28,188 nt of DNA from a virus (IMGVR_UViG_3300047319_000144:1-28188); one strand, 5' to 3'; shown: positions 5,881 through 24,426, counted from the first letter of the stretch. Numbers and translations are program-made. The notes: a model not told the origin generated them from the sequence alone.

Positions 5881-7446
5881 CTAATTCATGAAGCCGCGGT
5901 TGCGCAGCTGATCCAGCAATTGCAGCGTAATGGCATTGCGGCTGCTCTCGGCGACGTTACCCAGTCCCGGCCCCGCAATCATGGGCGCGTTTGCCGCCGC
6001 CTCGCGGTATAGCGGCGAATTTTTGGCAAGCGTAGCGGCAAGATCGGCCGCGCCTTGGCCGGCAACATGCTCGCCGTATTTACGCACGCCGTAGCCGATT
6101 GCTGGAATACCCAGCCCGGCAACCAGCGGTTTCCAGTCCCCGGTCATGAATGCTGTCGCAGCACCGCCAGCGCCTATAGTTCCAGAATAGGGTGTGAGCT
6201 GTCCACCCAGCATATTGCCCGCACCGCTCAGGATGTTGCCCATCGTGTAGCGGTTGGTGGTCGAGCGGATGGCGTCCTTCTCGTCCGGGGTAAACCACTT
6301 GCCCTCGCGGCTCTTGGGATTGAGCAAGCCAACCAGCGCCTTCTGCGGCGTCACGCCCTTGTCCTCGGCGAACTGGTTGATCTCCTCGATGGTCTGCGTG
6401 CGCTTCCCGGAGCGGTAGTTGCCGCGCGCCTTGTCAAGACTTTCGATGACAGCCGCGTGGTCAGCTGGCGTTCCCCCGGCCACAGCGTGCGTCGATTTCA
6501 TGAAATCATCCAGCCACTGCCGCACCGCCGATGCCCCCTTGGCACTGACGCCGGTGAGTTGCTGCCGCGCCGCGTCGATCTCATAAGGCGTCACGACACC
6601 GGGCGTGGATCCGGTCTGCTTGCGCGCATAGTCGAGCACGGCCCACACCGGGTTGTCCGGCGTCTTGACGACGCCGCCCGCCGGGCTTTGCAGGTGCGTC
6701 TCCAGCGCGTCCAGCCCGCCCTGATACATGCTGCGGTCATACTGCATCGGCGAGGTGTGGGTGTCGGTATAGTTCTGCCGCGCCGCGCCTTTCAGATCCA
6801 CCGAGCCGGGCACGGCCGCCGCTGATCGCGGCGCCACATTGGCGAAGGCGCCGAACGGCGCGCCGATGAGACCACCAAACGCGCCACCAAGCATCGCGTT
6901 CTTGGCGTAGTCGGACGGGTTCTCGGTGTAGGTGTGCCCCGCGGCCTGCGCGCCGCCCAGCAGCGCGCCCTCGGCGCCGTAGCCAGCCGCGCGTGCGGCC
7001 AGACCACGCACACCGGCATTGGCGCCGCCTAGCGCCAGCGAGGTGGTGCGGCCGACCACGCCCGCGCCGGGCACGAAGGCTTGCGCCACACCGCCGCCGA
7101 CGTCACCAGCTATTGATAGATATGGACTGCGCTCGCGCCGCATCTTGGTGTCAGCCACGGCCTGATTGACGCCTTCGGAGTAGCTCGGCGCATCACCGGT
7201 GGCGTAGCTCTGCAGGCCGCGAAGCCGGTCGGTACCACCGAACGTGAACATATTGGAAGCCGCGTTGAGCGTGTCCGCGGTATTGCTCATGAACGTCGCC
7301 GGATGTGCGTAGTCGAACTCGGACCCGCCCGCCGGAAGGTACGGGTTCGGCCCGGAGACCGGCACCTGCGGCGGCTGGTTCCGCGTCAGCAGCGGTGACT
7401 TCTCCAGCTCAGGGTCGTCGAGGTAGGGATTGCGATCGTTCGCCAT
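5881..7446 (-). CDS. Probable internal virion/ejection protein, glycine-zipper rich, 521 aa
   Basis: No enzymatic family is recognised. The N-terminus is polar with repeated NPYL (RNPYLDDPELEKSP, PNPYLPAGG). Residues about 110-210 form a long Ala/Gly-rich stretch with many small-xxx-small steps (GAFGGLIGAPFGAF), and a second Gly-rich hydrophobic patch lies near residues 400-455 (IGAGGAATAFMTG). Between them is a charged helical part. Such patterns are typical of membrane-inserting proteins that podoviruses eject with DNA. The position between tail-fibre and another ejection-like gene agrees. The ATG at 7446 directly follows the previous stop. The function is inferred. Confidence 0.6.
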   Translation of the reverse strand: MANDRNPYLDDPELEKSPLLTRNQPPQVPVSGPNPYLPAGGSEFDYAHPATFMSNTADTLNAASNMFTFGGTDRLRGLQSYATGDAPSYSEGVNQAVADTKMRRERSPYLSIAGDVGGGVAQAFVPGAGVVGRTTSLALGGANAGVRGLAARAAGYGAEGALLGGAQAAGHTYTENPSDYAKNAMLGGAFGGLIGAPFGAFANVAPRSAAAVPGSVDLKGAARQNYTDTHTSPMQYDRSMYQGGLDALETHLQSPAGGVVKTPDNPVWAVLDYARKQTGSTPGVVTPYEIDAARQQLTGVSAKGASAVRQWLDDFMKSTHAVAGGTPADHAAVIESLDKARGNYRSGKRTQTIEEINQFAEDKGVTPQKALVGLLNPKSREGKWFTPDEKDAIRSTTNRYTMGNILSGAGNMLGGQLTPYSGTIGAGGAATAFMTGDWKPLVAGLGIPAIGYGVRKYGEHVAGQGAADLAATLAKNSPLYREAAANAPMIAGPGLGNVAESSRNAITLQLLDQLRNRGFMN

Positions 7447-9237
7447 CTACTGCCCCCCGCTCCGGCGCGCGGCGCGCTTGGCCCGCGCTATCTCCAGATC
7501 GGCCGAGCCGGGGCCGTAGGCTTGGTCGAAATAGATCTTGTGCAACGCCGCCTGCCCCGGATCACCCTTCTGGGTGTCGAGGAACATCTTCAGCTTGTCT
7601 CCCGGTGCAGTCGGCAGCGGATTGGTGGCGTAGTAGGACGCCTGTGGATGCACCCCGTGCGGCGATCCCTCGCCTAAGAAGTTGTGAACCAGATCCTCGT
7701 AGCGGTTTATCCTTGTATTGTTGATCTCGGCGGCGCGATCCATCAGGGTCTTGATGGTTTTCATCTGCAGTTCCGGGTTGGTGCCCTGCAGATCCTGCGA
7801 GATGGCCAGATCTCTGTCAGTCACACGTCCTCCGACGCCGTTGATGGTCTCGATCGCCTGCTTCAAACCCGCCTGCAACGAAGCACGCATGATCTCGGTA
7901 TTGGAGGCATAGTCACCCTGCAGTCCGTTCTTGAGCGCCCAGTCGGCGAATTTAGCGGCCGCCACCTTCATGCTCGAACCGTAGCCGGTAATGACGCCAT
8001 CACGGATTGCCGCGCGCGCCAATTGTTGCGCGTTCTGGCCCTTGACGATCTGATCGACCGCACTCTTTTCCGTATCGAGGTTGCCCCAGAACACGTCCGG
8101 CGTCTTGCCGGTGCGCTTGACTATGTCGGCTCCGGCAGCCGCGACTGCGGCCTTGCTGCCAGCTTCTTCCAACTGTTTCTGCGCCACGCCCTTGCCCTGC
8201 TGGGCGCGCTCCTGCTCCAGTATGCGCTGGGTTTCCTGTTGACGATCGAGCCGGTACTTCTCCTGCAAGTCAGCATTCTCTCTGTCTCGCTGCTCCTTGC
8301 CCAGCTTCTGCAGCAACTGGCCTTGCGCGATCGCGCGCGGATCGCCGCGCTGGTTGCCCCACTGCTCCAGATCGGCGCCCTTCAGCTCCATCTGGTTGTA
8401 GGGCGCGTTTGGCGGCTGTTGCACCGGTCCCGGCTTTGGCGCCGCCACCGGTGGCCACACTTGGTTGATCTCGGGGATGTCAGGCGCGGTGCCCGCGGCT
8501 TGCGCCACCTGAACCGGCTTGATGTCAGTCTCGATCGGGCGGTTCGGCTTAAGTGGGGAACCAAGGAGAGACGGGTCCGGGCTTAAATCCGAGGGGGCGG
8601 AGGCGGGCTGCTGGCCCGCCAGCATAGGGTTTGGTTGCGGCCCTCCCTGCCGCGCCTGCATGAGCTGGGCGATGCTGGCGCGTACCGCGGCGGGATTAGG
8701 CTGGCCGGTGGGCGCGCCCACCGGAGCTGCGTCGCTCATGGTGCCGGTGTCGGCCGAGGCCAGCTGCGGGGCACCGCCTGCATCTGCGACCGGCGGCAGG
8801 GCATCCGCGGGCTGGTAGGCATCGTTGTTGGCGGCGGCCTGCAGCAGCGGCGCGGCCGCGGCGGGAACCGGTGAGGCGTCCGCTACCGCCGGTGCGATCG
8901 GCGGCATCTGCGGCGACGCCTCGGCGCGCGGTCCGGTCGCCGCGGCCGGTGGATTGGTCTGCTGCATCAGCGAGGACGCGGACGGCGGCGGGTGCTCGAT
9001 GTTCCACTTGTCATAGGCCGCCTGCTGCGCGTCCAGCTGCGCCAGCTGCGAACGCTCTCCCAGCGCGTCTCCGATCGCGGTCAATCCCTCGCCGACGTTC
9101 TTGGGATAGCCTTTGCGATCGCGCCCCAACATCGCGATCGCGATCTTGCGGCGGGTCTCCAGCGCCTGCGGGCTGCCGGGATCACCGGCGGGCGCGCTGC
9201 CGCTGAAGGCATAGGTCAGATTGTCAAATAGTCCCAT
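7447..9237 (-). CDS. Probable internal virion/ejection protein, 596 aa
   Basis: The protein has three zones: a conserved-looking N-terminus (FDNLTYAFSGSAPAGDP, then RKIAIAMLGRDRKGYPKN), a disordered Pro/Ala-rich linker at about residues 83-285, and a Gln/Glu/Arg-rich coiled coil at about 303-368. A folded helical C-terminal domain follows, with ETINGVGGRVTDRDLAISQD and an NTRINRYEDL segment, a pattern I recognise from uncharacterised podovirus structural proteins. There is no visible lysozyme or transglycosylase motif. The ATG at 9237 overlaps the preceding stop (TGATG); a GTG one codon earlier is the alternative. A role in DNA ejection is inferred from neighbours. Confidence 0.65.
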   Translation of the reverse strand: MGLFDNLTYAFSGSAPAGDPGSPQALETRRKIAIAMLGRDRKGYPKNVGEGLTAIGDALGERSQLAQLDAQQAAYDKWNIEHPPPSASSLMQQTNPPAAATGPRAEASPQMPPIAPAVADASPVPAAAAPLLQAAANNDAYQPADALPPVADAGGAPQLASADTGTMSDAAPVGAPTGQPNPAAVRASIAQLMQARQGGPQPNPMLAGQQPASAPSDLSPDPSLLGSPLKPNRPIETDIKPVQVAQAAGTAPDIPEINQVWPPVAAPKPGPVQQPPNAPYNQMELKGADLEQWGNQRGDPRAIAQGQLLQKLGKEQRDRENADLQEKYRLDRQQETQRILEQERAQQGKGVAQKQLEEAGSKAAVAAAGADIVKRTGKTPDVFWGNLDTEKSAVDQIVKGQNAQQLARAAIRDGVITGYGSSMKVAAAKFADWALKNGLQGDYASNTEIMRASLQAGLKQAIETINGVGGRVTDRDLAISQDLQGTNPELQMKTIKTLMDRAAEINNTRINRYEDLVHNFLGEGSPHGVHPQASYYATNPLPTAPGDKLKMFLDTQKGDPGQAALHKIYFDQAYGPGSADLEIARAKRAARRSGGQ

Positions 9238-9503
9238 CACCCTGCTCCCAGCTGCTGTTGCAACGCCAACCTGCGCTGCGCTTCTTCTTCCGCGGCCTGC
9301 TGCTGTTGCACGGCCTGTTGCTGCTGCGCCTCCGCCTGCGCCTGTTGCTGCTGCGCCATCGCCATTGGATCGACCGGCGGTGGCACGGCGGGACGCTGCT
9401 TCTGCGCCATCATCCGCTGCGCCATCACCTGCTGGGCAATGCGCTTACGCAGCTCCAGCTGCTGATAACCGAGTGCTGCGACATCTTTCGGCACGTTGAC
9501 CAT
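9237..9503 (-). CDS. Glutamine-rich small protein, 88 aa
   Basis: The product begins with a short charged helix (MVNVPKDVAALGYQQLELRK) and then becomes almost entirely Gln, Ala and Met with runs such as AQQQQAQAEAQQQQAVQQQQ. It is probably one long helix or coiled coil. It starts one base after the stop of the upstream gene and ends in a TGATG overlap with the ejection-protein gene. Together with the Gln-rich stretches of its neighbours it suggests an oligomerising or scaffolding helper, but nothing more can be said. Confidence 0.6.
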   Translation of the reverse strand: MVNVPKDVAALGYQQLELRKRIAQQVMAQRMMAQKQRPAVPPPVDPMAMAQQQQAQAEAQQQQAVQQQQAAEEEAQRRLALQQQLGAG

Positions 9504-9504
9504 C

Positions 9505-10902
9505 CTAAGCTGCCCTGATGATGGATCCCATCACCTCGCGGGGTCTGATGTACTTGACGCCCTCGTGTTCCTCGACCGCGCTTGGCTCGATGCGCTCGAC
9601 ATCCTGCGCCATCGGACCGATGTGACGCGTCGACGAAGGATCGTCCTTGTAGCTGTACTGGTAGATCGGCAGCTTCCTGCGCGCGCCGTCGGTATTGGCG
9701 GCGAACACGGTGCCGATCCTGTCGATGTCGTCCTTCTCGCGGCGGTCCGATTTCAGCGCGCCAGCGCCGAGGCCGAGCACGCCGCCGATCAGCGCGTTGG
9801 ATTGCTGCATCTGGGTATTGTACAGCCCCATCTGGTTCTGGAAGCCCTGCTGGGTGATGCCTGCGATGTCGGTGGTTGGAATTTGAGTTGACGGCGCGTT
9901 GACGAAGTTGGGCGAGGTAACTTGGCTGCCGCTCATCAGCGCGGAGATCTCGTTGATGGGCTGATTTCTATTTGCGTACTGCTCCTGCAGCCACTGGTTT
10001 CTGGCGGCCTCGGCCGCGTTGAAGCCCGACTGCGCCTGACTGGTCTGCTGCGCCAGCCCGGCATTGGCGAACGCCGCCTGCGCCGCGTTCTGCGTGAACA
10101 GCTGGTTCGCCGCCTGATTGTAGAAGGTGCCTTGGCCGAGGTTCTGCTCGTAGCCCTGCTGCTGCGCCGCGTTCTGGAACTGGGCGCGCTGCGCCGCCAT
10201 CGCGTCCATGCGCTGCTGTTCCTGCCCGGCCTGCGAGATCGCGCCAAATCTGGCATCGTTGGCCTGCTGCTGGTAGGTCCGCATCGCGTCGTTGTAGGCT
10301 TGGCTGCCGTAGCGGATGCCTTGGTCCGCCAGCTGCTGCTGGACGCGGCTTTCCTCCTGCTGCAGCGACGGGTTCATCCGCGCCATCAGGCTGTCCTCGA
10401 CGCGCTGGCGATCGGCGGAGTAGTTGTCGGCCGGTCCGTAGTCCTGCGTAATCTGTCCGCCCTGATCGAAGCTGGTCTGCAGCGGGATGCCCGCGTTGAA
10501 ACTGGTCTGCGCCTTCGGCACGTTGCTGATGGTGGAACTATCGCCCGCGGCCGGTCCTCCGCTCGGATTGAACGGGGTGGACAGCACGTTGCCGACGCGG
10601 TTGGTCTGCTGGTTGGCGACGTTGGCGAGCTGCTGCTTGGTGGCGTCCTGCGTGTTCTTCAGCGCAAGACCTGTAGGGGAGAGGCTCTGCGTCGCGGTAA
10701 AGGTCGGGATGTTGTAGGTCTGTCCCGTGCTCGGATCGGTGAAGGCGTAGCTGCCGCTCGGATTGTAGCTCAACGAGCCGTCCGGCGTGTTCTGGTTGAT
10801 GTTGCCCAGATACGCGTTCGCCACTGCCGTCGAAACATTGGTGCCGGTCTGCGCCCGCGCGGTGGCGGCCGGATCTGGAGGGGTAGGTGCGTCAGGCTTC
10901 AT
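9505..10902 (-). CDS. Tail protein with C-terminal S74 chaperone domain, 465 aa
   Basis: The N-terminal part carries a conserved phage pattern (PPDPAATARAQ, ANAYLGNINQNTPDGSLSY) known from many podovirus and siphovirus structural proteins. The middle, about residues 150-320, is a long Gln/Asn/Ala-rich helical stalk with heptad-like spacing. The final 80 residues form an S74 chaperone domain: SDRREKDDI with Ser385 and Lys390 at the five-residue spacing used for self-cleavage, then IGPMAQDVERIEP. It is the second S74 protein of the window, so two separate trimeric appendages or internal components are likely matured the same way. The ATG lies three bases after the preceding stop. Confidence 0.8.
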   Translation of the reverse strand: MKPDAPTPPDPAATARAQTGTNVSTAVANAYLGNINQNTPDGSLSYNPSGSYAFTDPSTGQTYNIPTFTATQSLSPTGLALKNTQDATKQQLANVANQQTNRVGNVLSTPFNPSGGPAAGDSSTISNVPKAQTSFNAGIPLQTSFDQGGQITQDYGPADNYSADRQRVEDSLMARMNPSLQQEESRVQQQLADQGIRYGSQAYNDAMRTYQQQANDARFGAISQAGQEQQRMDAMAAQRAQFQNAAQQQGYEQNLGQGTFYNQAANQLFTQNAAQAAFANAGLAQQTSQAQSGFNAAEAARNQWLQEQYANRNQPINEISALMSGSQVTSPNFVNAPSTQIPTTDIAGITQQGFQNQMGLYNTQMQQSNALIGGVLGLGAGALKSDRREKDDIDRIGTVFAANTDGARRKLPIYQYSYKDDPSSTRHIGPMAQDVERIEPSAVEEHEGVKYIRPREVMGSIIRAA

Positions 10903-10905
10903 GGC

Positions 10906-11250
10906 TCAGTATCCCTGTCCCTGTGGCGGCGGCATTCCACCCGGCTGCGGTGCCGCGCCGGGCATTGGCGCGGCTCCGGGCTGCATCGGCGGCGGCGCGG
11001 CTCCGGGTGCACCGGGCTGCCGTGGAATGATCGGCAAGGACGGCGGCGCCATGCCGGGCAGCGGCGTGCCGCCCTGCGGCATGCCCGGCGGCGAATAGGG
11101 CGGCGGCATCGGCTGGCCCTGCTGCGGGATCGGCGAGGGGCCTTGCGGGAACTGCGGCGCTACACTGGGCGGAGGACTTGCAATGTTCATCAGCGCGCTC
11201 GTGATGCTGTTGCGCTGGTTGTCGACGCCGGGCGGCAGATAGGGAGGCAT
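10906..11250 (-). CDS. Proline-rich low-complexity protein, 114 aa
   Basis: The 114-residue product starts MPPYLPPGVDNQRNSITSAL, the only part with folded character, and continues as Pro/Gly/Ala/Met repeats (GAAPMPGAAPQPGGMPPPQG) with no predicted fold. The start at 11250 is chosen because its ATG overlaps the stop of the acetyltransferase gene (TGATG); the longer reading to 11340 would run through that gene. It belongs to a block of disordered proteins downstream of the tail nozzle gene and is probably a minor virion or assembly protein. Confidence 0.65.
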   Translation of the reverse strand: MPPYLPPGVDNQRNSITSALMNIASPPPSVAPQFPQGPSPIPQQGQPMPPPYSPPGMPQGGTPLPGMAPPSLPIIPRQPGAPGAAPPPMQPGAAPMPGAAPQPGGMPPPQGQGY

Positions 11251-11729
11251 CAGGCGGCCTGTGCTTTCTTCAGCGGGTGGTGCCGCCGATCGCGCTTGTT
11301 GAACTTGTTGTCGACCCAGTCCTCGAACGTCAGCGTACACAATACGCAGTTCCTGTCGTGGCCGAGCAGCCGCGGCACCAAGATGAAGCCGTAGCCGATC
11401 GCGGCCAGCACCCGCAGCAGCGAGGTGTTCTTTTCCTCGACCCGCATCAGCACCATCTGGCAGCCGATTTCGAGGAACGGATAGTCATAGATCCGGCGCA
11501 GCGTCTCGCTCGTCAGCCAATACTTGCCCGGCAGTGCCGCGCCCGACATCTCGATCACGCCCGCGCCGATGTCGAAATTATGGTAGACGAGGCCCGCGAT
11601 CAGCTTGCCGTCGTCGACAATTCCAATCGCCTTCGACGCCTTGGAGAAGCCGCGCTCGCGCACAGCCGGGATCAGCGCCGCCACGAACTCGGCGACGAGT
11701 TGATCGTGTCCGTAGACGTAGTCGAGCAT
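11250..11729 (-). CDS. GNAT-like acetyltransferase encoded in the late operon, 159 aa
   Basis: The 159-residue protein has the size and layout of a GNAT N-acetyltransferase: a beta-rich N-terminal half (AIGIVDDGKLIAGLVYHNF, then GVIEMSGAALPG), an acceptor-side segment (YPFLEIGCQMVLMRV), a helix (NTSLLRVLAAIGYGF) and a closing strand (CVLCTLTFEDW). The pattern resembles a group of phage-borne GNAT proteins I recognise from alphaproteobacterial phages. The classical acetyl-CoA loop is not textbook here (VEEKNTS at its place), so activity is uncertain. It is overlapped on both sides (TGATG). It could modify a virion or host protein; the target is unknown. Confidence 0.75.
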   Translation of the reverse strand: MLDYVYGHDQLVAEFVAALIPAVRERGFSKASKAIGIVDDGKLIAGLVYHNFDIGAGVIEMSGAALPGKYWLTSETLRRIYDYPFLEIGCQMVLMRVEEKNTSLLRVLAAIGYGFILVPRLLGHDRNCVLCTLTFEDWVDNKFNKRDRRHHPLKKAQAA

Positions 11730-12712
11730 CAGATCGGACCTCCGCCATAGCCGCCCCAGCCGAGGGCACTGTCGCCACCGCCAAATGCCGCGCCGTTGGC
11801 GCCGCCCACAGGACCCAGCGCCTCACCAGTTGTGCCGCCCCAGCCCATCGCGGCACCGGCAAGGCCTCCGCTGCTGGCAATGCCGCCGCCGCCCCAACCG
11901 GGGCCAAACCCTACGCTGGAGGGTCCGCTGACGGCGACCCCGTTGACGGCTTGACCATCGAAACCTGTCGCGCCGTAGCCGAAACTGCCGGGACCGTTGA
12001 CGCCTTGGCCGGGCGTTCCGATGCTCATGCCGACCGGGCCGGTGGCGTTGGGAGCATTGGCGGCCTGATTGGCTTCATTAGAACTTATTCCGTTCGGGCC
12101 GACTGCCGTATTGCCCGGACCGAATGGACTGTTGTCGCCGCTGGGCGCGCCGCCGCTGCTCATACCCGCATCGCCACTATTGCCCGGCCCGCCTAGCCGC
12201 TCGTTGACCCATTGTATGGCCGCCTGATCGCCCGCCATCCGCTTAAACGTCTCCCAGTCGCTCTTACCCAACATAGACATTCCGACATCATTCACGGCGC
12301 CGATGCCTTGGCGCGACCAGTAGTCCGGGTTGGCGCGGGCCATCGAGCCGCCGCCGATCCACGGTGAGCCGCCGGGGGGCGGCGTTCCGGGCTGGCCGCC
12401 CTCGGTGACACCGCCCTGCCACGGCATCAGGGCGTTCATCCAGCCAACATCGGTAGGGCTGCCGCTGGGCGCGCTCTGCGGCTGGAAATACTGCGCATAG
12501 TCACCGTAGGGACTGGCCTGCGACTGCTGCGCCTGCTGCGCCATGACCGCCTGCGCGATCGCGTTGCGCGTCGCGTCCTGTTGCTGTTGCAGGGCTGCGT
12601 AATAACCGGACATATCCGGCGCCGCGCCTCCACCGCCGCCGCCACCAGACTGCGGATCAGGAACTTCGATGCCGCCGCCGCCCTCGTCGCCTGACGATGC
12701 GTAGATCTTCAT
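11729..12712 (-). CDS. Glycine-rich low-complexity protein, 327 aa
   Basis: The product begins MKIYASSGDEGGGG, has a short Gln-rich helix (YYAALQQQQDATRNAIAQAV) and a small charged helical part (KSDWETFKRMAGDQAAIQWV). Otherwise it is a Gly/Pro/Asn/Ala sequence with tandem near-repeats built on GNGP- or GFG-like units. The ATG at 12712 is chosen because it overlaps the preceding stop (ATGA); an upstream in-frame ATG at 12742 lies inside that gene. Its stop overlaps the acetyltransferase start (TGATG). It has no known family and is a probable minor virion component. Confidence 0.7.
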   Translation of the reverse strand: MKIYASSGDEGGGGIEVPDPQSGGGGGGGAAPDMSGYYAALQQQQDATRNAIAQAVMAQQAQQSQASPYGDYAQYFQPQSAPSGSPTDVGWMNALMPWQGGVTEGGQPGTPPPGGSPWIGGGSMARANPDYWSRQGIGAVNDVGMSMLGKSDWETFKRMAGDQAAIQWVNERLGGPGNSGDAGMSSGGAPSGDNSPFGPGNTAVGPNGISSNEANQAANAPNATGPVGMSIGTPGQGVNGPGSFGYGATGFDGQAVNGVAVSGPSSVGFGPGWGGGGIASSGGLAGAAMGWGGTTGEALGPVGGANGAAFGGGDSALGWGGYGGGPI

Positions 12713-13317
12713 GAGCTGGCTCCCGGAACTTGAGGCACCCACTGCTGCGGACCCTGCGGCACCACGTTGGAGCCGCCGCCGCCCGGGAAGCGGGTGTCGA
12801 AGTTTTCAGACGGCCCGGTCAGGCTGGGATCTGGAGCGCCTTGGAACCGCTGCTGGAACGGCGTCTGCTGTGGTTGCTGTGGCGTGCCACCGCCGAAGAA
12901 ATCGCTACCGCCGTAGCCACCACTGGCCAAGCCGCCACCGCCGATATTGGTCGGCGGCAGTCCGGCGCCGCTGAAGGCGTTGTAGCCGCTCGGGATCTGC
13001 GGCTGGCTCATCGCGCCGCCGCCGTAAGGCCCGGCAACGCCGGTCGGGATCTGCTGTCCCGCCATCACCCGTTTGTAGAGCATGATGTCGGTCGGCGACA
13101 TGCCCATCTGCATGTACTCGGCATCCGACTTCAGCGGCTGCGACGACGGCGCGCCCGGCGCGCTGTACTGCACGGTGCCGCCGCTCAATGCCTGCTGCGG
13201 CATCATCGCATTGGCGATGTTGTCGCGCTGGTAGTTGGCCTGCAGCTGCGCGGCCTCGGCCGGGTGGAGGCTCGAATAGGTCGGCCACCATCCTTCGCGT
13301 GTCGGATCGCCTGCCAT
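12709..13317 (-). CDS. Gly/Pro/Gln-rich protein with shared short motifs, 202 aa
   Basis: A conserved-looking N-terminus (GDPTREGWWPTYSSLHPAEA, then YMQMGMSPTDIMLYKR) is followed by a disordered Gly/Pro/Gln region. In that region PFQQRF (153-158) and SENFDTRF (170-177) echo PFASRF and PENFEDRW in the product of the gene just upstream. The start overlaps the stop before it (TAATG) and the end overlaps the next start (ATGA). The family is unrecognised; with its neighbours it forms a set of related disordered proteins. Confidence 0.7.
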   Translation of the reverse strand: MAGDPTREGWWPTYSSLHPAEAAQLQANYQRDNIANAMMPQQALSGGTVQYSAPGAPSSQPLKSDAEYMQMGMSPTDIMLYKRVMAGQQIPTGVAGPYGGGAMSQPQIPSGYNAFSGAGLPPTNIGGGGLASGGYGGSDFFGGGTPQQPQQTPFQQRFQGAPDPSLTGPSENFDTRFPGGGGSNVVPQGPQQWVPQVPGASS

Positions 13318-14180
13318 TATGACCTGCCTTCCATGACTTGGGGCCTTAGCTGATTGGGGTTCAGGGCTCCGCCCGGATTGTCGGGTCCGAACTGGCTCTC
13401 GAAGCCCGGCGGCAGGTTCGGCTGGAACGTCTGGCCCTGCACGTTGGTGTAGGGCGAGGCGGTGTACTGAGAAGGCGTACCCTGCTGGAAGCCGGGAAGG
13501 GCGCTGAACCGGCTGGCGAACGGATTGGGGTCGAACTGCTGCGCCGCCGGATTGTAGCCCAATAGCGCCTGCGGGTTCGGGTTTGACGGCGGCGACATTG
13601 CCCCGCCGCGCATCCAGCTATCGTCGTAGCCCGGAGTTTTTGGCGTGAGGCCCTGTTGTTGCTGAGGCGCGGTAAGCTCGGTGAAGTATTTGCCCCAGTC
13701 CTGCGTGACCGGCTGCTGCGGCGGAGGCGGTACGGCCGACGTGGGCGGATACTGGCCGCGCGTGTTGTCCCAGCGGTCCTCAAAATTCTCTGGCTGCTGC
13801 GGCGGCGTGGTTTGCTGTGCCCACGGCTGCGACTGCGCCGCCGATGCGCCGCCATACAGCCAGCTATCGTCGTAGCCTGCGGTCTTGGGGGTATAGCCGC
13901 CCTGCTGCGCCATCGGCGTCGGCGACAACAAACCGCCTCCGCCCTGCCGCGGAACGGGGAGCTGGCCGTAGGCGGACTGGTCAAACACCGACCCCATGCC
14001 ACTCGGCTCACCAACGCCGCGGCCGTAGGCGGCGCCGAGGCCGGAGTAGTAATCGGTCTGCTGGCCGAAATTGCCGAAGATATTGTTGAGCTGCGCCTGT
14101 CCTCCCGCGCCCACGCCGCCGGGGCCGAACCCCATCGAGGCGTTGATCTGGTCGGCGCTCATCCCACCAAAGTCAGCCAT
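13317..14180 (-). CDS. Repetitive Gln/Pro/Gly-rich protein with GYDDSW repeats, 287 aa
   Basis: The N-terminus has some folded character (MADFGGMSADQINASMGFG, then QLNNIFGNFGQQTDYYSGLG). The rest is disordered and Pro/Gln-rich. A 14-residue unit occurs twice: TPKTAGYDDSWLYGGA at 97-112 and TPKTPGYDDSWMRGGA at 179-194, with an identical 18-base core in DNA. GMGSVFDQ (61-68) recurs as SMGSVFNQ in the upstream neighbour, and ENFEDRW and PFASRF recur in the downstream neighbour. Both ends are TAATG overlaps. Its role is unknown; a multivalent docking protein in the virion or assembly is one possibility. Confidence 0.7.
   Translation of the reverse strand: MADFGGMSADQINASMGFGPGGVGAGGQAQLNNIFGNFGQQTDYYSGLGAAYGRGVGEPSGMGSVFDQSAYGQLPVPRQGGGGLLSPTPMAQQGGYTPKTAGYDDSWLYGGASAAQSQPWAQQTTPPQQPENFEDRWDNTRGQYPPTSAVPPPPQQPVTQDWGKYFTELTAPQQQQGLTPKTPGYDDSWMRGGAMSPPSNPNPQALLGYNPAAQQFDPNPFASRFSALPGFQQGTPSQYTASPYTNVQGQTFQPNLPPGFESQFGPDNPGGALNPNQLRPQVMEGRS
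13614..13877 (-). repeat. Two copies of an 18-bp core encoding GYDDSW
   Basis: The 18 bases at 13614-13631 are identical to 13860-13877, 246 bases (82 codons) apart. Surrounding codons are similar at the protein level but diverged in DNA, which points to selection on the motif rather than a very recent copy. Confidence 0.75.
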
Positions 14181-14641
14181 TACGATACCCCCAGCATGAC
14201 TTGCGGCGGCGTCAGCCCGGCCGCGACCGGGCCGCCGCCCGAATACGGACCGCCGGAAATGTTGGCGGGCAGCATTTGCGCGGTGGGCTGCGTCGCGGCG
14301 GCTTGCACCACTGGCGGCGGGGGGACGTAAGGCGGGATCACCGGATTGGTGACCGGAATGAAGCCCTGATTGAACACGCTGCCCATCGAGGAATTGGGGT
14401 CGTAGGCCGCCACACCGGGATCGTAGGCTGCTTGCGGCTGCGCGCGGTTGGTCGCGGCGCCTGCGGGGCCGACGTCCGGGATGGACTGATAGGCATATTG
14501 CGCCGGATCGTCGGTGGCAGTGTCCGGGTATTGCGGAGAGCTATAGCCGGGCAGATACGGCGCAAGGTGAAACGACGGCCCGCCTTGCCCTACGTCCGGG
14601 ATGGACTGGTAGGCATATGTTTTCTTTCTTGGCGCCGTCAT
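14180..14641 (-). CDS. Repetitive small protein with two YAYQSIPDVG units, 153 aa
   Basis: The product starts MTAPRKKTYAYQSIPDVG and repeats YAYQSIPDVG at residues 9-18 and 49-58. It then shows a doubled AAYDP unit (71-82), SMGSVFNQ (85-92) and a Pro-rich tail (IPPYVPPPPVV). It is probably disordered with Tyr-rich linear motifs. The ATG at 14641 is preferred over an upstream one inside the preceding gene; GAGG lies upstream. The stop overlaps the next start (TAATG). No family is recognised. It is the first of the low-complexity block, directly after the tail nozzle gene. Confidence 0.65.
   Translation of the reverse strand: MTAPRKKTYAYQSIPDVGQGGPSFHLAPYLPGYSSPQYPDTATDDPAQYAYQSIPDVGPAGAATNRAQPQAAYDPGVAAYDPNSSMGSVFNQGFIPVTNPVIPPYVPPPPVVQAAATQPTAQMLPANISGGPYSGGGPVAAGLTPPQVMLGVS
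14472..14618 (-). repeat. 27-bp direct repeat encoding YAYQSIPDVG
   Basis: Bases 14472-14498 and 14592-14618 match at 26 of 27 positions, 120 bases apart. The single difference is silent (TAT/TAC). This is either a recent duplication or homogenisation of a short functional peptide. Confidence 0.85.
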
Positions 14642-14648
14642 CCATGCC

Positions 14649-16346
14649 TCACACGTTGACGCCTGCACCGTCGTAGGTCGCCGCGATCGAGATCAATTCG
14701 ACGATCGGCAATGCCTGTTGCGCGATCGTCACCTGACAGATCGGCGCGTGCGAAAAGCCCGTATATCCAATGGACACCCACATCGTGTTCTGCACCGTCG
14801 CCGTCGAAGGAGCGGGCTGGTCCCACTGCGCGTATTGCGCGATCTCTGGTGCGGTCGGCGCGTGCGGGCCGGGTGGCGTCGGCCCGGCATCCGGCCCCCA
14901 TAGGCCCTGATCCCAGACATCGAGCGGGCCGGGATCCGGCGCCGCCGACGGCGGTGGCGGCACCACGATCACATAATCGGTGGTGGCACTAAGCTGCGGC
15001 TGGAACGGCTCGCCCGCTCTCGCCCGGAACGAAGCCCGCGCCTGCCGCCACACGATCGTCGCCGACTGCGAGGAAAACATCTCCCAGCCGCCGACCATTG
15101 TTGCGGTGTAGGGCGTGCCGTCGTCGGTGCCGGTGCGCTCGAACTGGATGATCTTGCCGCCTTGGGTGCCAAAGAAGGCATCGGCGCGCAGCTTGCCGAA
15201 GCACATTACGTCGAGGCCAGTGTACCGCGTCCATGCGCCGGTGGCGATGTTGGCCGCGCCCATCGTGTAGCTGCCCGGAATGCCGCCGGGCCACGTCACG
15301 AACAGCCCGCCGAACTCGTCCCATTTGAGCATCGTCCACGGCAGCGCGCGTTTGGCGTTGACCTCGTCGCGCCACATCGACTTGATCGGCAGCGTGATCG
15401 CGGCGAGTTCGAGCTGCGAGCTGTCCTTGGTGATGGACGCCGAGATCGGAATGATACCGTCCACGGTGGCAATCAGCACATCGCCACCGATCGGCTGCCA
15501 GCAGTTCATGCCGAGCGGGAAGCTGGTGGCGTATCTTCCCTCCTGCCGCCAGTTCGCGACCGTGGAGGGATCGCTGCCGGTGAAGATCAGCAGCTCGCCC
15601 TGATCGGTCATGAAAACGCATTTGTCGTCGATGCCGTCGCCCGCGTCGATGCTCCATGTGAAGCCGCACAGCAGCTTGCCGCCCTTCGTTGCAGCTCCGG
15701 CCAGCGGGATCTGCAGGATGCGGCCTTGAAAAGCATTTGTGGGCAGGTACCACGCGTTCATGGTGCCGCCTTCAACGAAGAAATATCGCCCTCGATACTT
15801 CCACACATACGTCAAATTGTGGCCCGCGACACAGGACGGTGGCGGCGTGATGGCGGGGTCCGCGTTGATCTGGCTGGCGTTCAGCGTCGTCCACGTCGTG
15901 CCGTCGAAGTGCAGCAGGAAGTCACCAGCGTCGTTGGCGACCAGCATGTGGTCGCCAGCTTGGTTCGCCAGCTGGCTTGCCACGTAGTTGCCAGACAGTT
16001 GACCTGTCTTGATCGACACCGGCGTCGAGGCGGTGACGTCGTACAGCTTGGTGGCGTTGCCCGCGTACATACGCTGCTGGTTGCCGCTGATGAAGTTGAA
16101 CATCGAGATGACAGGCGTCGTCTCCGGCAGTTGCGCCCATGTCTTGGTGCCGCCGCGCAGCTTGATGCTCTTTGTCGTCGGCAGCCAGTTGTCGAGCACC
16201 AGCGCGCCGCCGGGCTGCATGAAACTCTCGTTCTCATTCAGAATGAGACCTCGCGTCGGCGCGGGCAGCGTCACGGTCTGCAGCTGCTGCGCGACCTGTG
16301 CCGGAACGGCCTGACGGCGGAAGCCTTGGTAGGCGGCGACGTTCAT
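14649..16346 (-). CDS. Tail nozzle/packaged-DNA stabilization-type protein, 565 aa
   Basis: The protein has a mostly beta-strand composition with repeated aromatic/Gly-rich units of about 40-60 residues (YAGNATKLYDVT, DFLLHFDGTTWTT, YVWKYRGRYFFVEGG, FMTDQGELLIFTG), as expected of a beta-propeller. In podoviruses the nozzle (T7 gp12) and the P22 gp10 stabilization protein occupy the place just after the tail adaptor, as here. Its N-terminus includes PAPTRGLILNENESF and LDNWLPTTKSIKLRGG, a pattern common in this protein group. A Pro-rich insert near residues 460-510 is unusual. Its start overlaps the adaptor stop (ATGA). The role is inferred from fold and order. Confidence 0.7.
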   Translation of the reverse strand: MNVAAYQGFRRQAVPAQVAQQLQTVTLPAPTRGLILNENESFMQPGGALVLDNWLPTTKSIKLRGGTKTWAQLPETTPVISMFNFISGNQQRMYAGNATKLYDVTASTPVSIKTGQLSGNYVASQLANQAGDHMLVANDAGDFLLHFDGTTWTTLNASQINADPAITPPPSCVAGHNLTYVWKYRGRYFFVEGGTMNAWYLPTNAFQGRILQIPLAGAATKGGKLLCGFTWSIDAGDGIDDKCVFMTDQGELLIFTGSDPSTVANWRQEGRYATSFPLGMNCWQPIGGDVLIATVDGIIPISASITKDSSQLELAAITLPIKSMWRDEVNAKRALPWTMLKWDEFGGLFVTWPGGIPGSYTMGAANIATGAWTRYTGLDVMCFGKLRADAFFGTQGGKIIQFERTGTDDGTPYTATMVGGWEMFSSQSATIVWRQARASFRARAGEPFQPQLSATTDYVIVVPPPPSAAPDPGPLDVWDQGLWGPDAGPTPPGPHAPTAPEIAQYAQWDQPAPSTATVQNTMWVSIGYTGFSHAPICQVTIAQQALPIVELISIAATYDGAGVNV

Positions 16347-18920: not shown

Positions 18921-20192
18921 TCAGATCTGGCCGTTCAAACGCGCGATCGCGTTCGCAACAGCTGCGCGAGGGGTTGGACTGGCCGTCCGCGGTCGCCTCG
19001 AAGTCCCGTTGGCCGGGCCTATCTCGTGGGTGCCGTGGATCGAACGATCCGGTTCTCGGGTCTGAGCCGATTGGGTGCGGGTCTGAGCCGCGTGGGTGGC
19101 CGGGTAGAGACGCTCCGCCCGCCGGTAGGCCGTCTCGAGATCGAAACCGAGCTTCAGTTCCTGCTCGATCGCAGTCCCGAGTTCGTCAAAGCGCGGATGG
19201 CTGTCGGCGAAAACATCGATGGCGGACCGGGTTTGGACGAACTGCTGCTGAGTATGCATCTGTTGCACGGTCTGCTGCAAGTGCTGGATATGCTGGTGCA
19301 GGGCACCGATCTGCTGGCTGGCCGCGCTCTGCTGGTTGCCCATCTGCAGCTGCTTCAGCTGGTCCGGCGATTGTGACAGCACGTGGTAGGCGATGTCGCG
19401 CAGGCCGATCTTCTGCCCGTCCGGCGTGCGCAGGTTCAGATTGTTGACGATGACGTCCAACCCCGCGACCGGGTCCGCCCGCAGCTTCTGTTCCATGCCG
19501 ACATAATTGGTCAGCGCCTGATGCAGCGTGGTGCCTTGGTCCGACGCCATCTTGTGGAAGTGGCGGATCTTCGACATCTCGTCGAAATCACCCTTATAGG
19601 CGCGGTAGGCGTCGCCGAACTCCTTGTGCATCCGGCCAACCTCGCCGCGCACGCTCTCTGGAGTAGCGTGCCAGTCCGCCTTGGCGTGCTCGCCCATCCG
19701 CTGCGGCGGCTGCGCGTAGGGCGCATCGGCGGGCAATTGCCGGACCGGCTGTCCCGGTTGCGCGCCTTGCGCAACATTTTGCGCACCTTGCGTTGCGGCT
19801 GGCGCCGTGCGCGGCGCGAACCGGCCGCGATCGCGCGGCTGGGCGGCGGACGGCACCGCGGCTTCCGCCTGCGGCCGCTTGCGGAGATTGAGGGCTTCCG
19901 GCTTGGTCTCCTCCGGCGGCTGATTGTGGCCAGCCTTGGCCTCGGCGGCCGGGGCGGTGCGCTGGGCTGGCCGCTCGCCCTTCGGCGGCGGGGTATTGGC
20001 GCGGTCGAAGGCGCGCTGGATGGCCGCCCTGCGGCCCTCCGCCGCGTCCGGCGGGGTTTGCGGGGTCTGCGGGCCAACCGGGTTCGGCGAGTTGACCGGG
20101 TTCTGGTTGATCGGCACTTCGGTACGAGCCGGGGGGTTAGGCTGCGTCTGTGCTGGTAAGGGTGCCGCAGGCGTAACTGTCGTGTCAGACAT
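18921..20192 (-). CDS. Scaffolding protein, 423 aa
   Basis: The protein lies immediately upstream of the capsid gene and has the composition of a scaffold. Its Pro/Ala/Gln-rich disordered N-terminal third contains AGHNQPPEE, a motif often seen in such proteins. A helical middle follows (FGDAYRAYKGDFDEMSKIRH), then a Gln/His-rich coiled coil at about residues 285-325 (LHQHIQHLQQTVQQMHTQQQ). A basic C-terminal tail ends in AVANAIARLNGQI, suited to binding coat protein. It would drive procapsid assembly and then leave. AGAAGGA precedes the ATG. No protease gene is visible nearby. Confidence 0.8.
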   Translation of the reverse strand: MSDTTVTPAAPLPAQTQPNPPARTEVPINQNPVNSPNPVGPQTPQTPPDAAEGRRAAIQRAFDRANTPPPKGERPAQRTAPAAEAKAGHNQPPEETKPEALNLRKRPQAEAAVPSAAQPRDRGRFAPRTAPAATQGAQNVAQGAQPGQPVRQLPADAPYAQPPQRMGEHAKADWHATPESVRGEVGRMHKEFGDAYRAYKGDFDEMSKIRHFHKMASDQGTTLHQALTNYVGMEQKLRADPVAGLDVIVNNLNLRTPDGQKIGLRDIAYHVLSQSPDQLKQLQMGNQQSAASQQIGALHQHIQHLQQTVQQMHTQQQFVQTRSAIDVFADSHPRFDELGTAIEQELKLGFDLETAYRRAERLYPATHAAQTRTQSAQTREPDRSIHGTHEIGPANGTSRRPRTASPTPRAAVANAIARLNGQI

Positions 20193-20747: not shown

Positions 20748-21227
20748 TCACTTCTTCCTTGCCGACGAGCGCGCGATCGGCAGGAACTCGAACTCGACCG
20801 GATCGGAGATCTCCGGCCCGTTCCTGATCTGGACCTGCACCGTTGCCGGTTCCGTCCACAGGCTTGGCTTCACTCCTGTGGACAGCGTCTTGGCCTCGGC
20901 GTCGAACGTGGTTGGCTCGTCGTGTCCGGCGAAGTGGATCACGCTGTCGTTGAAGAAGTTCTCGCCGGTGACCACCAGCTGGAAGTCCGGGTCGCCGATC
21001 ATGCAGTCATAGGGGTCGTAGCCGGTAATGACCGGCTTCGGCACCGTCACGCCTTCGGGTAGGGGCAAACTAACGGTTTGCGGCTCGTTGATCGAGGCCG
21101 AGAACGGAAACGCCGCTGGCGGCGCCTCAGTCTTGGGCGCGGCCTTGGCCTCGGACTTGGCTTTGCCCTTCGCCTCGTGCTCGTGCTCGTGCTCGTCGTG
21201 CTCGTCGTCGTGCTTTTTCGTGGTCAT
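20748..21227 (-). CDS. IPT/TIG-like (Ig-fold) protein with charged N-terminal tail, 159 aa
   Basis: An extremely charged tail with His/Asp/Glu and Lys repeats (KKHDDEHDEHEHEHEAKGK) is followed by a folded domain of about 90 residues resembling IPT/TIG immunoglobulin-like domains (PKPVITGYDPYDCMIGDPDF, QLVVTGENFFNDSVIHFAG, then VQVQIRNGPEISDPVEFEF). The start at 21227 is chosen because it overlaps the previous stop (ATGA). Ig-like domains in phage head modules often decorate the capsid surface; that is inferred here. The His/Asp-rich tail could bind metal. Confidence 0.7.
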   Translation of the reverse strand: MTTKKHDDEHDEHEHEHEAKGKAKSEAKAAPKTEAPPAAFPFSASINEPQTVSLPLPEGVTVPKPVITGYDPYDCMIGDPDFQLVVTGENFFNDSVIHFAGHDEPTTFDAEAKTLSTGVKPSLWTEPATVQVQIRNGPEISDPVEFEFLPIARSSARKK

Positions 21228-22069
21228 GTGATTGTCCAAGTTTGAGGGGCCGTGGTCACCACGCCGCCGGTGACGACTGTCACCGCCGGAGTACCGGCCG
21301 CCGCGGGCGGGGTGGCCAGACAGGTCAGCGACGTCGCGGAAACGAAAGTGGTCGCCTGCGGCACGCCAGCGATCACAATTCTGGACTGGCGGGTAAATCC
21401 AGTTCCCGTCGCCGTCATGGTGATGGCGGCAGTGCCATGAACGCTCGTCGTTGGTGCAATGGTGGTCAGCGTCGGATTGGTCGCCGGGCTGAGACTGGAG
21501 GCGTGGTTGGTGTTCGGCGAGACCGGCGCACCGGCGTCGGTGGTGGCTTTCACCAGTGCCGGACCGGCGCCAACCGTCACCAGCGGGATCGGGGCATAGA
21601 TCGCGCTCGAGTAGCTCGCGGTCGCTACCGTCTCGGTGCCGAGGCCCTCGGCGGTGGCACTGGCGGCGGCCGGGACGAGGCCGGAGGCGACGCCGGGATA
21701 GCTGCCCAGAACACTGTTGAAGCCGTCGCCACCAGCGCCTGCGGCGTTGGTGCCGGGTGTCGTTCCCGTATTGTTGTCGGCGGCGGAGGTGCCACCCGCC
21801 AGCGCGGCGGCGGAGGCCGCAAACGCCGTCGCGGTCAGTGCCGCGCCGTCGTCATAGTAAGGCGGCGGGCTCTGGTTGACGCCAACGCCGGGGATTGTCT
21901 GCACCGGTCGACCGCCGGAACCATCGGCCGCCACTGCCGACATGTTGGCCATGTTGGCATAGTTTCCCCGCGTGAAGTTCGGCGGGTTCGGTCCGGTGGC
22001 GCCGGTGGTGGCGAAGTTGGTCGGCGGTGTCGGGTTGGGCGGGGTAACAGTCAGAGCTGATTGCGCCAT
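21224..22069 (-). CDS. IPT/TIG-domain structural protein, 281 aa
   Basis: The first 190 residues or so are low-complexity (Ala/Gly/Thr/Pro/Asn) with PPYYDDGAALTATAFAASAA, probably flexible. The last 85 form an IPT/TIG Ig-like domain (LTTIAPTTSVHGTAAITMTA, GTGFTRQSRIVIAGVP, then TPAVTVVTGGVVTTAPQTWT). The ATG at 22069 overlaps the preceding stop (TAATG); longer in-frame starts lie inside the upstream gene. Together with its neighbour this gives two consecutive Ig-like genes between portal and scaffold, which suggests capsid decoration or head-fibre proteins. Confidence 0.7.
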   Translation of the reverse strand: MAQSALTVTPPNPTPPTNFATTGATGPNPPNFTRGNYANMANMSAVAADGSGGRPVQTIPGVGVNQSPPPYYDDGAALTATAFAASAAALAGGTSAADNNTGTTPGTNAAGAGGDGFNSVLGSYPGVASGLVPAAASATAEGLGTETVATASYSSAIYAPIPLVTVGAGPALVKATTDAGAPVSPNTNHASSLSPATNPTLTTIAPTTSVHGTAAITMTATGTGFTRQSRIVIAGVPQATTFVSATSLTCLATPPAAAGTPAVTVVTGGVVTTAPQTWTIT

Positions 22070-24426
22070 TACATTTTCTCCTCGGGTTGATAGTCGCCTG
22101 TTGCTGCCAGTGCTCCGAGCGGCGCAGCGCCTGCCGCCATCCAGCCGCTCGGGTGGCGGCGAAACCACTCATAGTAATTGTCGACCACTTCCTGCGTGAC
22201 AGGTTGGACCTGCGGAATGTCTTTCGGCAGCCCGCGCATCACCTGAATGGCTGGCGTGGTGGCGGCCGAGACACCTTGGTTGACCTTCGGCACCAGCCCG
22301 CGGTGCATGTCCGGCGACAGCAGCGAGAACGGCAGGCTGCCCGGCGCGCGGTAGGCTTCGCCCTTCTGGCCCATCCATGTGATTGGGTAATTAGAGTGCA
22401 GCGGATGCTCGGTGACGCCGACATCGGGTCGCATCCGGCCGACCAGCAGCCCGGCACTGCCGCTCGGCGTATGGTACAGCTCCGGCATGGTGTTAGCCAG
22501 CCGCGCCTGTCCTACATCGACGCCGGTGGCTTTCAGGATCTCCTTGGTGTCGATGCCCTTGGTGAAGGCGGTGCGCGCGGGCAAGCCGCTGTCGAGCCAT
22601 TGCTGGAACGCCTCGCGATTGGCAAAGTCCGGCGCGTTGCCGCCCTTCGCCGCGATCGACGCGTTGATCTTGGCGATGGCGTCCGCGTTCGGCTCGGCCT
22701 GCCGCACCAGCTGATGCACGGTATTGGCCATCTGCTTGGCGCTGTCGCCCGCGCCGTGCGTCATCGCGACAGGCACATAATAAGGCACACCGCCGCGGTT
22801 CAGGATGTCGGTCGCCCGCTCCTGCGGCACTTTCGCGGCCGTTCTGGTTGTCGCCGCATAGAGCGGATCGACATCGGCAGGCATGCCGGGTATGGCGGCG
22901 CCAGCGTTCTTCGGCGTGAAATTGTAGCCGCCTTCCTGCGCCACCGGCGTGGCCAGCTGCTGGCCGCCGACATGCGTCACCTCGCCGCCGCCGCGCAGGC
23001 GATCGGTCGGGCCGAACACCAGCTCGGCCTTCTCCTTCTGCAGCTTGGCGATGTCGAGCGGCGGCAGCGTGTAGCCGGGATCGTTGGCGACCGTGAACGT
23101 CATATCCGCGGGCTTGGCGCCGGTTTTCAGCGTCGAGAAGGCGTGGCCGGTGTCGCCGGACTTGTTGACGAAGGCGGGCGCTCCGGTGTTCGGGTCGTAG
23201 CGCAGCAGCCAGTTCTTGAAGGTGCCCTGCGGCGTCGAGCCGAAACCCATCTCAGGAGCCGCTGGAACGTCCTTGCTCAGTTGCGGCTGTTCAACGATGT
23301 CGGAGCGCGGGTACCGGATGAACTGCTTGTTGTAGGGAACGTCCTGCGACGTCTCCGACCACGGCGGCACGTTCTTCAGGCGGCCCGGCGTCCAGTCCGC
23401 GCGGGTCTGCACGTTGCGCGCCTCAACCTCGCCAGCGAGCCGCTTGTAGCCTTCCTGCACCGCGTAATCCTGCGCGGAACGATCTAGCATCCGCATGCGC
23501 TCCGGGTCGCGCATGATCTTCTGGTGCTCTTTCAGATAGTCTGCGTAGCTATACTCAGGACCGAACACGCCGCTTTCCGTCAGGTACTTCTCGGTCGCAG
23601 GCGTCTGGATCGCCTTGAGCCGCTCTTGATAGAGACCCCAGCCCGGCGACTTGGTGGTCAGGCCAAACGTGTTTCCGCCGGTGGCAAAGCCTTCGATGTC
23701 CTGAATACCGTGCTGCATTTCGTGCAGCAGTGTCGAGCGCATGCCAGCCGGATCTCGCGCGCCTACTGTCAACGTAGGCGGGCTGCCTTCGCCGCCTGCC
23801 TGATAGCTGCCCTTCATGCCGCCTGTGCCGTGGCTGATGTTGAGGTCCGCCTCGGCGAGCTGCGGATAGGCCGCGTATAGCTCGGGATGCTCGAATACGT
23901 CGCCGAGCGCGGCGGTGCCATAGTGCGAACGTGTGCCTGCAGGCGATACGTTGGTGAACTGATCCGGCGTATCGCGCCATTTGCTCGCGGTGTCTGGTAT
24001 TTCAAAACGCCACTGGGCGTCCGGTCCCTGAAACCAGCCGGTGGCCTGCCGTATCTTGTACTGGGACGCGTTGCGCCCGGCCATGTCCTCGGCCAGTTTA
24101 AGTGCGCCCAGATCGGCCGTCTTGGCCAGCTTACCGCCAAACGTCAGCCCACCTCCCGAGAACGCCAGTGCCGTGCTTGTCGCCTTGTCAACATCCTGCG
24201 GCGTGATCATGCCGCCTGCGGTCTGGTAGCCCCACAGATCGGTGCCGCGCGCATCGGTCGGCTGGTAGGCGCGCTGTTGCGCAATCGCACCCATCGCAAA
24301 AGGTTGCAGATCGGCCTGCCCGTAGTCGGTGACTTTGGGCGGCGCGACTTGCGGCGCGCCGATCGGCGCGCCCGTCATCGGGTCGAAGCCATACTCGTCG
24401 TCGCGCGCGAGATCGCCCAGTGGCAT
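22069..24426 (-). CDS. Large phage protein with zincin-like HEMQH motif, 785 aa
   Basis: The protein follows the portal gene, the place of MuF-like proteins, but has a different make-up. Residues about 115-145 carry MAGRNASQYKIRQATGWFQG and WRFEIPD, and residues 230-248 carry STLLHEMQHGIQDIEGFA. Both match what I know of the LPD-type (large polyvalent protein) metallopeptidase-like domains, probably LPD23. His235, Glu236 and His239 would be zinc ligands and base. A C-terminal part of about 180 residues (YYVPVAMTHGAG, YRAPGSLPFSLLSP) is conserved-looking but unassigned. The ATG at 24426 is chosen from the TGATG overlap with the portal stop; a longer reading uses portal DNA. It may be packaged and injected. 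Confidence 0.75.
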   Translation of the reverse strand: MPLGDLARDDEYGFDPMTGAPIGAPQVAPPKVTDYGQADLQPFAMGAIAQQRAYQPTDARGTDLWGYQTAGGMITPQDVDKATSTALAFSGGGLTFGGKLAKTADLGALKLAEDMAGRNASQYKIRQATGWFQGPDAQWRFEIPDTASKWRDTPDQFTNVSPAGTRSHYGTAALGDVFEHPELYAAYPQLAEADLNISHGTGGMKGSYQAGGEGSPPTLTVGARDPAGMRSTLLHEMQHGIQDIEGFATGGNTFGLTTKSPGWGLYQERLKAIQTPATEKYLTESGVFGPEYSYADYLKEHQKIMRDPERMRMLDRSAQDYAVQEGYKRLAGEVEARNVQTRADWTPGRLKNVPPWSETSQDVPYNKQFIRYPRSDIVEQPQLSKDVPAAPEMGFGSTPQGTFKNWLLRYDPNTGAPAFVNKSGDTGHAFSTLKTGAKPADMTFTVANDPGYTLPPLDIAKLQKEKAELVFGPTDRLRGGGEVTHVGGQQLATPVAQEGGYNFTPKNAGAAIPGMPADVDPLYAATTRTAAKVPQERATDILNRGGVPYYVPVAMTHGAGDSAKQMANTVHQLVRQAEPNADAIAKINASIAAKGGNAPDFANREAFQQWLDSGLPARTAFTKGIDTKEILKATGVDVGQARLANTMPELYHTPSGSAGLLVGRMRPDVGVTEHPLHSNYPITWMGQKGEAYRAPGSLPFSLLSPDMHRGLVPKVNQGVSAATTPAIQVMRGLPKDIPQVQPVTQEVVDNYYEWFRRHPSGWMAAGAAPLGALAATGDYQPEEKM

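Follow-up and report, generated by a model that had tools for sequence, protein, structure and literature searches.

A hypervariable slot of disordered-protein genes in the structural operon of uncultured soil phages, and a candidate docking motif common to slot and ejection-type proteins

The window analyzed here is a 28,188-nucleotide stretch of viral DNA (IMGVR_UViG_3300047319_000144:1-28188) whose structural operon harbors a block of five genes encoding Gly/Pro/Gln/Asn-rich proteins (p153, p287, p202, p327 and p114). The block lies between a tail nozzle gene and an S74 tail protein gene and is interrupted by a GNAT gene between p327 and p114, exactly the layout that an original prediction made from the sequence had described. 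Structural genes, block genes and GNAT are all encoded on the minus strand, and each gene either directly adjoins its neighbor or shares a few bases with it. The operon runs nozzle, slot (the four genes between nozzle and GNAT), GNAT, p114, S74/ejection-like protein, ejection-type proteins and fibre. T7 genes gp12-17 provide a reference for this order: the window's nozzle, GNAT at the gp13 position, proteins at the gp14, gp15 and gp16 positions and fibre families follow the same succession; the agreement is one of order, and for gp15 and gp16 the case for homology is weak. The genes concerned are as follows.

18921-20192, minus strand: putative scaffold, located upstream of capsid
14649-16346, minus strand: tail nozzle (phrog_5107), bordering the block and adjoining p153
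14180-14641, minus strand: p153, slot gene 1, predicted disordered, with MGSVFNQ once and YAYQSIPDVG twice
13317-14180, minus strand: p287, slot gene 2, predicted disordered, with a conserved head and C-terminal segment and variable cassettes between (alignment, pLDDT 50)
12709-13317, minus strand: p202, slot gene 3, predicted disordered (dN/dS 0.30 against L038)
11729-12712, minus strand: p327, slot gene 4, predicted disordered (dN/dS 0.31-0.44)
11250-11729, minus strand: GNAT-fold protein, which forms the slot's conserved downstream border (phrog_4470, E=1.5e-33)
10906-11250, minus strand: p114, Pro/Gln/Met-rich, near-universal in the clade
9505-10902, minus strand: S74 protein (PF13884, E=8.5e-11)
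9237-9503, minus strand: p88
7447-9237, minus strand: p596, putatively ejection-type
5881-7446, minus strand: p521, at the gp16 position, putatively ejection-type

GNAT aside, no block protein matched a family in PHROGs, Pfam, NCBIfam or PADLOC. The scaffold is putative, identified from position, composition and a match to phrog_25516 (virion structural protein). We infer that p596 and p521 are ejection-type from synteny and a weak PHROG match (p521 to phrog_342, internal virion protein, E=3e-5); the S74 protein itself has a DNA-ejection match (phrog_4287, E=0.007). A fold search with the p521 model (pTM 0.49) returned no PDB match at E<=0.001 and no named match.

All of the short motifs quoted in the original prediction (MGSVFxQ, ENFxxR[FW], PFxxRF, and YAYQSIPDVG and GYDDSW twice each) are present, at the following checked positions.

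14588-14617, minus strand: YAYQSIPDVG copy 1, p153
14468-14497, minus strand: YAYQSIPDVG copy 2, p153
14366-14386, minus strand: MGSVFNQ, p153
13977-13997, minus strand: MGSVFDQ, p287
13860-13877, minus strand: GYDDSW cassette copy 1, p287
13770-13790, minus strand: ENFEDRW, an FxxR[FWY] motif, p287
13614-13631, minus strand: GYDDSW cassette copy 2, p287
13506-13523, minus strand: PFASRF, an FxxR[FWY] motif, p287
12844-12861, minus strand: PFQQRF, p202
12787-12807, minus strand: ENFDTRF, p202

The claim that these motifs are not random low complexity held only in part within the window: the 10-residue YAYQSIPDVG repeat was equalled by none of 1000 shuffles, but the GYDDSW repeat is marginal (length 6 was reached in 13 of 1000), MGSVFxQ is common to genes 1 and 2 at p of about 0.013, and ENFxxR, the strongest match that genes 2 and 3 share, has p of about 0.25 and is not significant alone. 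Across relatives, FxxR[FWY] occurs 46 times in 169 slot proteins against 1.45 in shuffles and MG[GSDTE][LVT]F (MGxxF) 65 times against 0.65, counts that come from related homologues and so are not independent samples, with regular expressions (these two and that for the scaffold motif below) composed after the sequences had been seen. These two motifs are family-wide, being conserved at this position in relatives, whereas GYDDSW and YAYQSIPDVG are genome-specific cassettes. MGxxF is not exclusive to the block, since it is also found in 25 of 77 S74 proteins.

Relatives were collected with the nozzle as query: the sequence alone retrieved 111 IMG/VR relatives and a nozzle alignment 549; 178 loci were analyzed, with genes called by a simple chaining script. 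GNAT has 111 homologues among these relatives. Of the 118 loci with both borders present, 14 have a nozzle-to-GNAT distance of 0-16 bp and the other 104 one of 426-2995 bp. The empty slots belong to cultured phages (RHph_N2, RHph_I3_18, pCB2047-C and EBPR podovirus 2), to alphaproteobacterial genome contigs (Mesorhizobium, Taklimakanibacter and others, retrieved with the nozzle alignment at 32-44% identity), which are probably prophages, and to two close IMG/VR relatives, L132 and L138, in which the slot is empty beside a normal nozzle and the p114 gene is still there. A first scan of the genome contigs, before the nozzle alignment was used as query, gave no match. RHph_N2, pCB2047-C and EBPR podovirus 2 have homologous flanking genes in the same nozzle-GNAT-S74 order, but the nozzle lies directly beside GNAT and both slot genes and p114 are absent before S74; no relative of p287 or p114 was found in cultured phages.

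Where the slot is filled, its contents are replaced while flanking genes remain up to 100% identical. In three relatives (L021, L025, L050) whose capsid protein is 100% identical to that of the window, the four-gene set has given way to one protein of 600-700 residues and an 80-residue Cys protein. p153 has a 99% identical copy in L007, and its head is conserved in type-A relatives. The nozzle-GNAT block is a hypervariable slot in the operon with which uncultured soil phages build their virions. It was originally suggested to form a tail-core or injected assembly: the block does adjoin injected or core-type proteins, but an essential tail core is unlikely, because the slot is empty in L132, L138, the cultured phages and the prophage-like contigs.

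Slot proteins are composed to about 60% of G, P, Q, N, S and A, and an AlphaFold2 model of p287 built with 11 homologues has a mean pLDDT of 50 and a pTM of 0.17, in agreement with the disorder first proposed. Their architecture resembles beads on a string, in which conserved heads are combined with cassettes repeated inside and between genes; in the p287 family, the head (about 55 residues) and the C-terminal segment are retained while the middle changes. One cassette, YLPGGGLDPNDPGNIAQYYRLMGGG, is found in all three L059 genes, and another, NPYASTGWW..FVQ..GPEAA, in all three L052 genes. Copies of most cassettes differ mainly synonymously: the GYDDSW copies show 6 synonymous and 0 non-synonymous differences, all four codons of the TPKT just before GYDDSW differ synonymously, and the only differences between the two YAYQSIPDVG copies are at three third codon positions. 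Together with dN/dS values of 0.11-0.47 across the block genes, indicating purifying selection, these data support a view of the slot proteins as intrinsically disordered, multi-motif proteins with repeats under selection, and they bear out the earlier suggestion of evolution by motif duplication. Cassettes are shared across genes in 19 of 62 pairs (30.6%) within loci and in 199 of 1292 (15.4%) between loci, the latter figure being raised by homologous genes that occupy shifted positions and are counted among these pairs; an excess as high was seen in 1 of 2000 permutations. A strict rule of one cassette per genome was rejected, as gene 2 of L038 has two copies of GGGLYLD while genes 1 and 4 of that locus have GYDDSW.

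A further motif, R[DN]xI[AT]xx[LMV]M, connects the slot with genes downstream. Its copies in the window are listed below, as is a basic variant that p88 and p596 carry close to their N-termini; p153 and p287 contain no clear copy (p=0.34 for p287 with the position-specific scoring matrix, or PSSM, described next).

13201-13236, minus strand: candidate docking-type motif NYQRDNIANAMM, p202 (p=0.0025, PSSM from p114 homologues)
12542-12577, minus strand: candidate docking-type motif DATRNAIAQAVM, p327 (p=0.0025, PSSM from p114 homologues)
11188-11223, minus strand: motif DNQRNSITSALM, p114 (position checked)
9423-9458, minus strand: basic variant in N-terminal LELRKRIAQQVM, p88
9127-9162, minus strand: basic variant in N-terminal LETRRKIAIAML, p596
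5914-5949, minus strand: motif in C-terminal ESSRNAITLQLL, p521, modelled at low confidence as a separate helix

The PSSM was trained on p114 homologues only (NDQRNAITQALM) and then applied to other families at a cut-off of p<0.01, and because training and tested families are separate it is a cleaner test than regular expressions. It detected the motif in slot genes 1 to 4 (30/70, 18/50, 20/21 and 2/2, respectively) and in the post-S74 families postS74_1 (21/69) and postS74_2 (23/55), in 1/70 scaffolds, and in none of the controls (0/70 each for nozzle, adaptor, capsid, GNAT, S74 and g239, and 0/27 portals). The strict pattern occurs 42 times in slot proteins (57,122 residues) against 0.05 expected, 15 times in ejection-type proteins against 0.08 expected, and in 66 of 70 p114 homologues, with no occurrence in other virion families, capsid, portal, nozzle and adaptor among them, or in the non-structural parts of eight near-complete relatives (270 ORFs, 56,922 residues). 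Among loci having a slot protein, 39 of 103 carry it there, and an N-terminal LRxRIAxxMM is present in 33 of 69 postS74_1 proteins. As with the other motifs, these counts come from related sequences and are not independent. The motif is specific to the block, p114 and ejection-type genes. Its position varies from residue 13 to residue 486, or is C-terminal, so that it is not merely a relic of one ancestral gene start, and it occurs in contexts that cannot be aligned and in ejection-type proteins, which are unrelated. This pattern, the most informative of the motifs, is absent from the original prediction.

The putative scaffold contains two sites of a similar but not identical kind, RREAIQxAFDRAN and RREAIQNAIRRVN (pattern RREAIQxA[FI]); in the window the former appears as EGRRAAIQRAFD, near residue 52. 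At p<0.01, PSSMs built from the two sites matched 20/70 and 13/70 p114 proteins, 6/90 and 15/90 slot proteins, and 24/57 and 32/57 of the scaffold's own other copies, with control counts mostly of 0-2 and 5/90 in the adaptor family for the C-terminal PSSM. These matches suggest that the scaffold motif is related to that of p114 and the slot.

The most plausible reading of a helix that ejection-type proteins have in common with the variable disordered proteins, and that is related to a scaffold helix, is a signal for docking or packaging; the slot proteins, linked by it to scaffold-like and injected-protein genes, are probably extra head cargo carrying a common docking tag. We give an even chance to a model in which the block encodes disordered, hypervariable cargo of the virion interior, brought in through a docking helix common to scaffold and ejection proteins. 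The cargo slot would head the internal-virion-protein part of the late operon; many of its products would carry a short amphipathic helix (consensus (Q)R[DN]xI[AT]xAL[ML]), with a helix of the same pattern near the C- or N-terminus of downstream ejection-type proteins and two copies of the related RREAIQxA[FI] in the putative scaffold. As the prohead assembles, the helix may dock disordered proteins, ejection proteins and scaffold on a common partner (coat, portal or the scaffold itself), and the disordered proteins would be packaged around the portal and exit with or before the ejection proteins at infection. Cassettes (GYDDSW, YYRLM, TGWW and others) would represent the exchangeable payload: selection maintains them in several copies, and phages differ in which ones they carry, presumably reflecting variation in the binding partners. 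The sequences show the genes, the motifs, the variability of the slot, the selection and the specificity of the motif; packaging, docking partner, ejection and cassette binding targets are what we infer here. The original prediction took the block for a family of multivalent scaffolds or docking proteins; the block's proteins look less like a self-contained scaffold family than like clients of a common dock, because R[DN]xIAxxLM is also found in ejection-type proteins and has a related form in the putative scaffold. More tentatively, and with some doubt, one short helical motif, related to one in the scaffold, might be the family's universal loading tag, carrying an open-ended and rapidly exchanged set of disordered, multi-cassette cargo into the host. 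The sequence-level basis on which podophage proteins are chosen for the head is poorly defined, and a nine-residue motif on slot cargo, p114 and ejection-type proteins, with a relative in the putative scaffold, offers a directly testable packaging signal that would also help to recognize virion cargo not yet annotated in uncultured phages. The cassette slot is, in addition, an unusual case of fast modular evolution within a structural operon.

The targeting sequences of T4 internal proteins are N-terminal and are cut off by the prohead protease. T4 packs a variable set of such proteins (IPI-IPIII, Alt) by one targeting sequence; hypervariable, with little in common except that short sequence, and recruited into a scaffold-containing prohead (PMC3012670), they are analogues where the original prediction knew of no described equivalent. 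A short sequence common to otherwise unrelated variable proteins is found here too; however, it is internal or terminal, starting anywhere from residue 13 to residue 486 or sitting at the C-terminus, it is common to ejection-type proteins, and the slot proteins are long and predicted to be disordered. The slot proteins would differ from known internal virion proteins in being disordered, multi-cassette and rapidly exchanged. A second analogue is provided by T7 gp6.7 and gp7.3, whose genes lie elsewhere in the T7 genome. These small accessory virion proteins are likewise podovirus proteins held by short segments, in a phage with a similar nozzle/internal gene order, and the sole modelled part of gp7.3, a short C-terminal loop, anchors it to two nozzle subunits (PMC11784390). 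Unlike the slot proteins, they are not described as hypervariable or cassette-built. In P22, the ejection proteins gp7, gp16 and gp20 enter the procapsid with the scaffold, which has been proposed as their dock during procapsid assembly, and are ejected upon infection (PMC12005531); they differ in being required, whereas slot genes are missing in L132 and L138, and they are not known to share a scaffold-like motif. A search of the openly available literature found no described motif linking scaffold to ejection proteins.

The gp7.3 precedent (PMC11784390), together with the position of the slot directly after the nozzle gene, would also fit assembly factors of the tail channel or nozzle, residing in the tail lumen or nozzle-adaptor joint, where they aid nozzle attachment or plug the channel and the helix binds nozzle or adaptor. 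We regard this as unlikely, since the motif in ejection-type proteins and its related form in the putative scaffold point inside the head, and L132 and L138 combine an empty slot with a normal nozzle. Improbable, too, is that the proteins are first of all injected host-directed effectors (anti-defence or periplasm-acting, for example) whose cassettes bind variable host targets, the helix being incidental to virion loading. Cassettes are indeed swapped between closely related phages, modules are repeated and the slot accepts enzymes (an F420 ligase in L006), but the searches of PADLOC, Pfam, NCBIfam and PHROGs gave no match, the genes are embedded in a structural operon, and the motif is specific to proteins of that operon. 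Effectors would be compatible with the cargo model if first packaged. Very improbable, finally, is drift of weakly constrained low-complexity genes at a recombination hotspot, with slippage repeats and motifs inherited by duplicated genes from a common ancestor. In its favor are the high divergence, the low complexity and GC-richness of the sequence, the slots that are empty in some phages and the near-chance motif sharing inside the window, but this explanation is already disfavored by the dN/dS values and the mainly synonymous differences between repeat copies, and by a motif recurring in non-alignable contexts and in unrelated ejection-type proteins.

In the hypervariable slot between the nozzle and GNAT genes, which encodes disordered, cassette-built proteins, the related locus L006 carries a full F420-0:gamma-glutamyl ligase gene (L006:6033-6809; PF01996, E=5e-75), an auxiliary metabolic gene within a structural operon. 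Type-A slots, from relatives sharing the conserved p153 head with the window, harbor an 80-90 residue protein with the motif HCGICxYYxGxxxCSxVxGxISP, placed before GNAT:

L017:6872-7120, HCGICxYYxGxxxCSxVxGxISP protein (also in ~18 other slots)

One copy was searched against Pfam and PHROG, with no matches in either. In some slot proteins of three further loci (L124, L126, L141), the cassette consists of NPDVxxAG(x)HYxxxGxxEGR-type repeats. Several close relatives (L021, L025, L036, L050) have a nozzle protein with an insertion of ∼55 residues compared with that of the window.

Three window genes lie near the putative scaffold gene, which was assigned by position:

22069-24426 (-), LPD23-domain (PF18838, E=4.5e-17) polyvalent protein
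21224-22069 (-), first TIG/IPT-like domain protein (Pfam), upstream of the putative scaffold
20748-21227 (-), second TIG/IPT-like domain protein, also upstream of the putative scaffold (domain match below the Pfam cut-off)

The LPD23 gene, which lies between those for the portal and the putative scaffold, also encodes a metallopeptidase-like motif, LLHEMQHGIQ. The two TIG/IPT-like proteins are perhaps involved in capsid decoration. A tRNA-Gly called by ARAGORN at 19829-19926 (+), antisense within the putative scaffold gene, is probably spurious.
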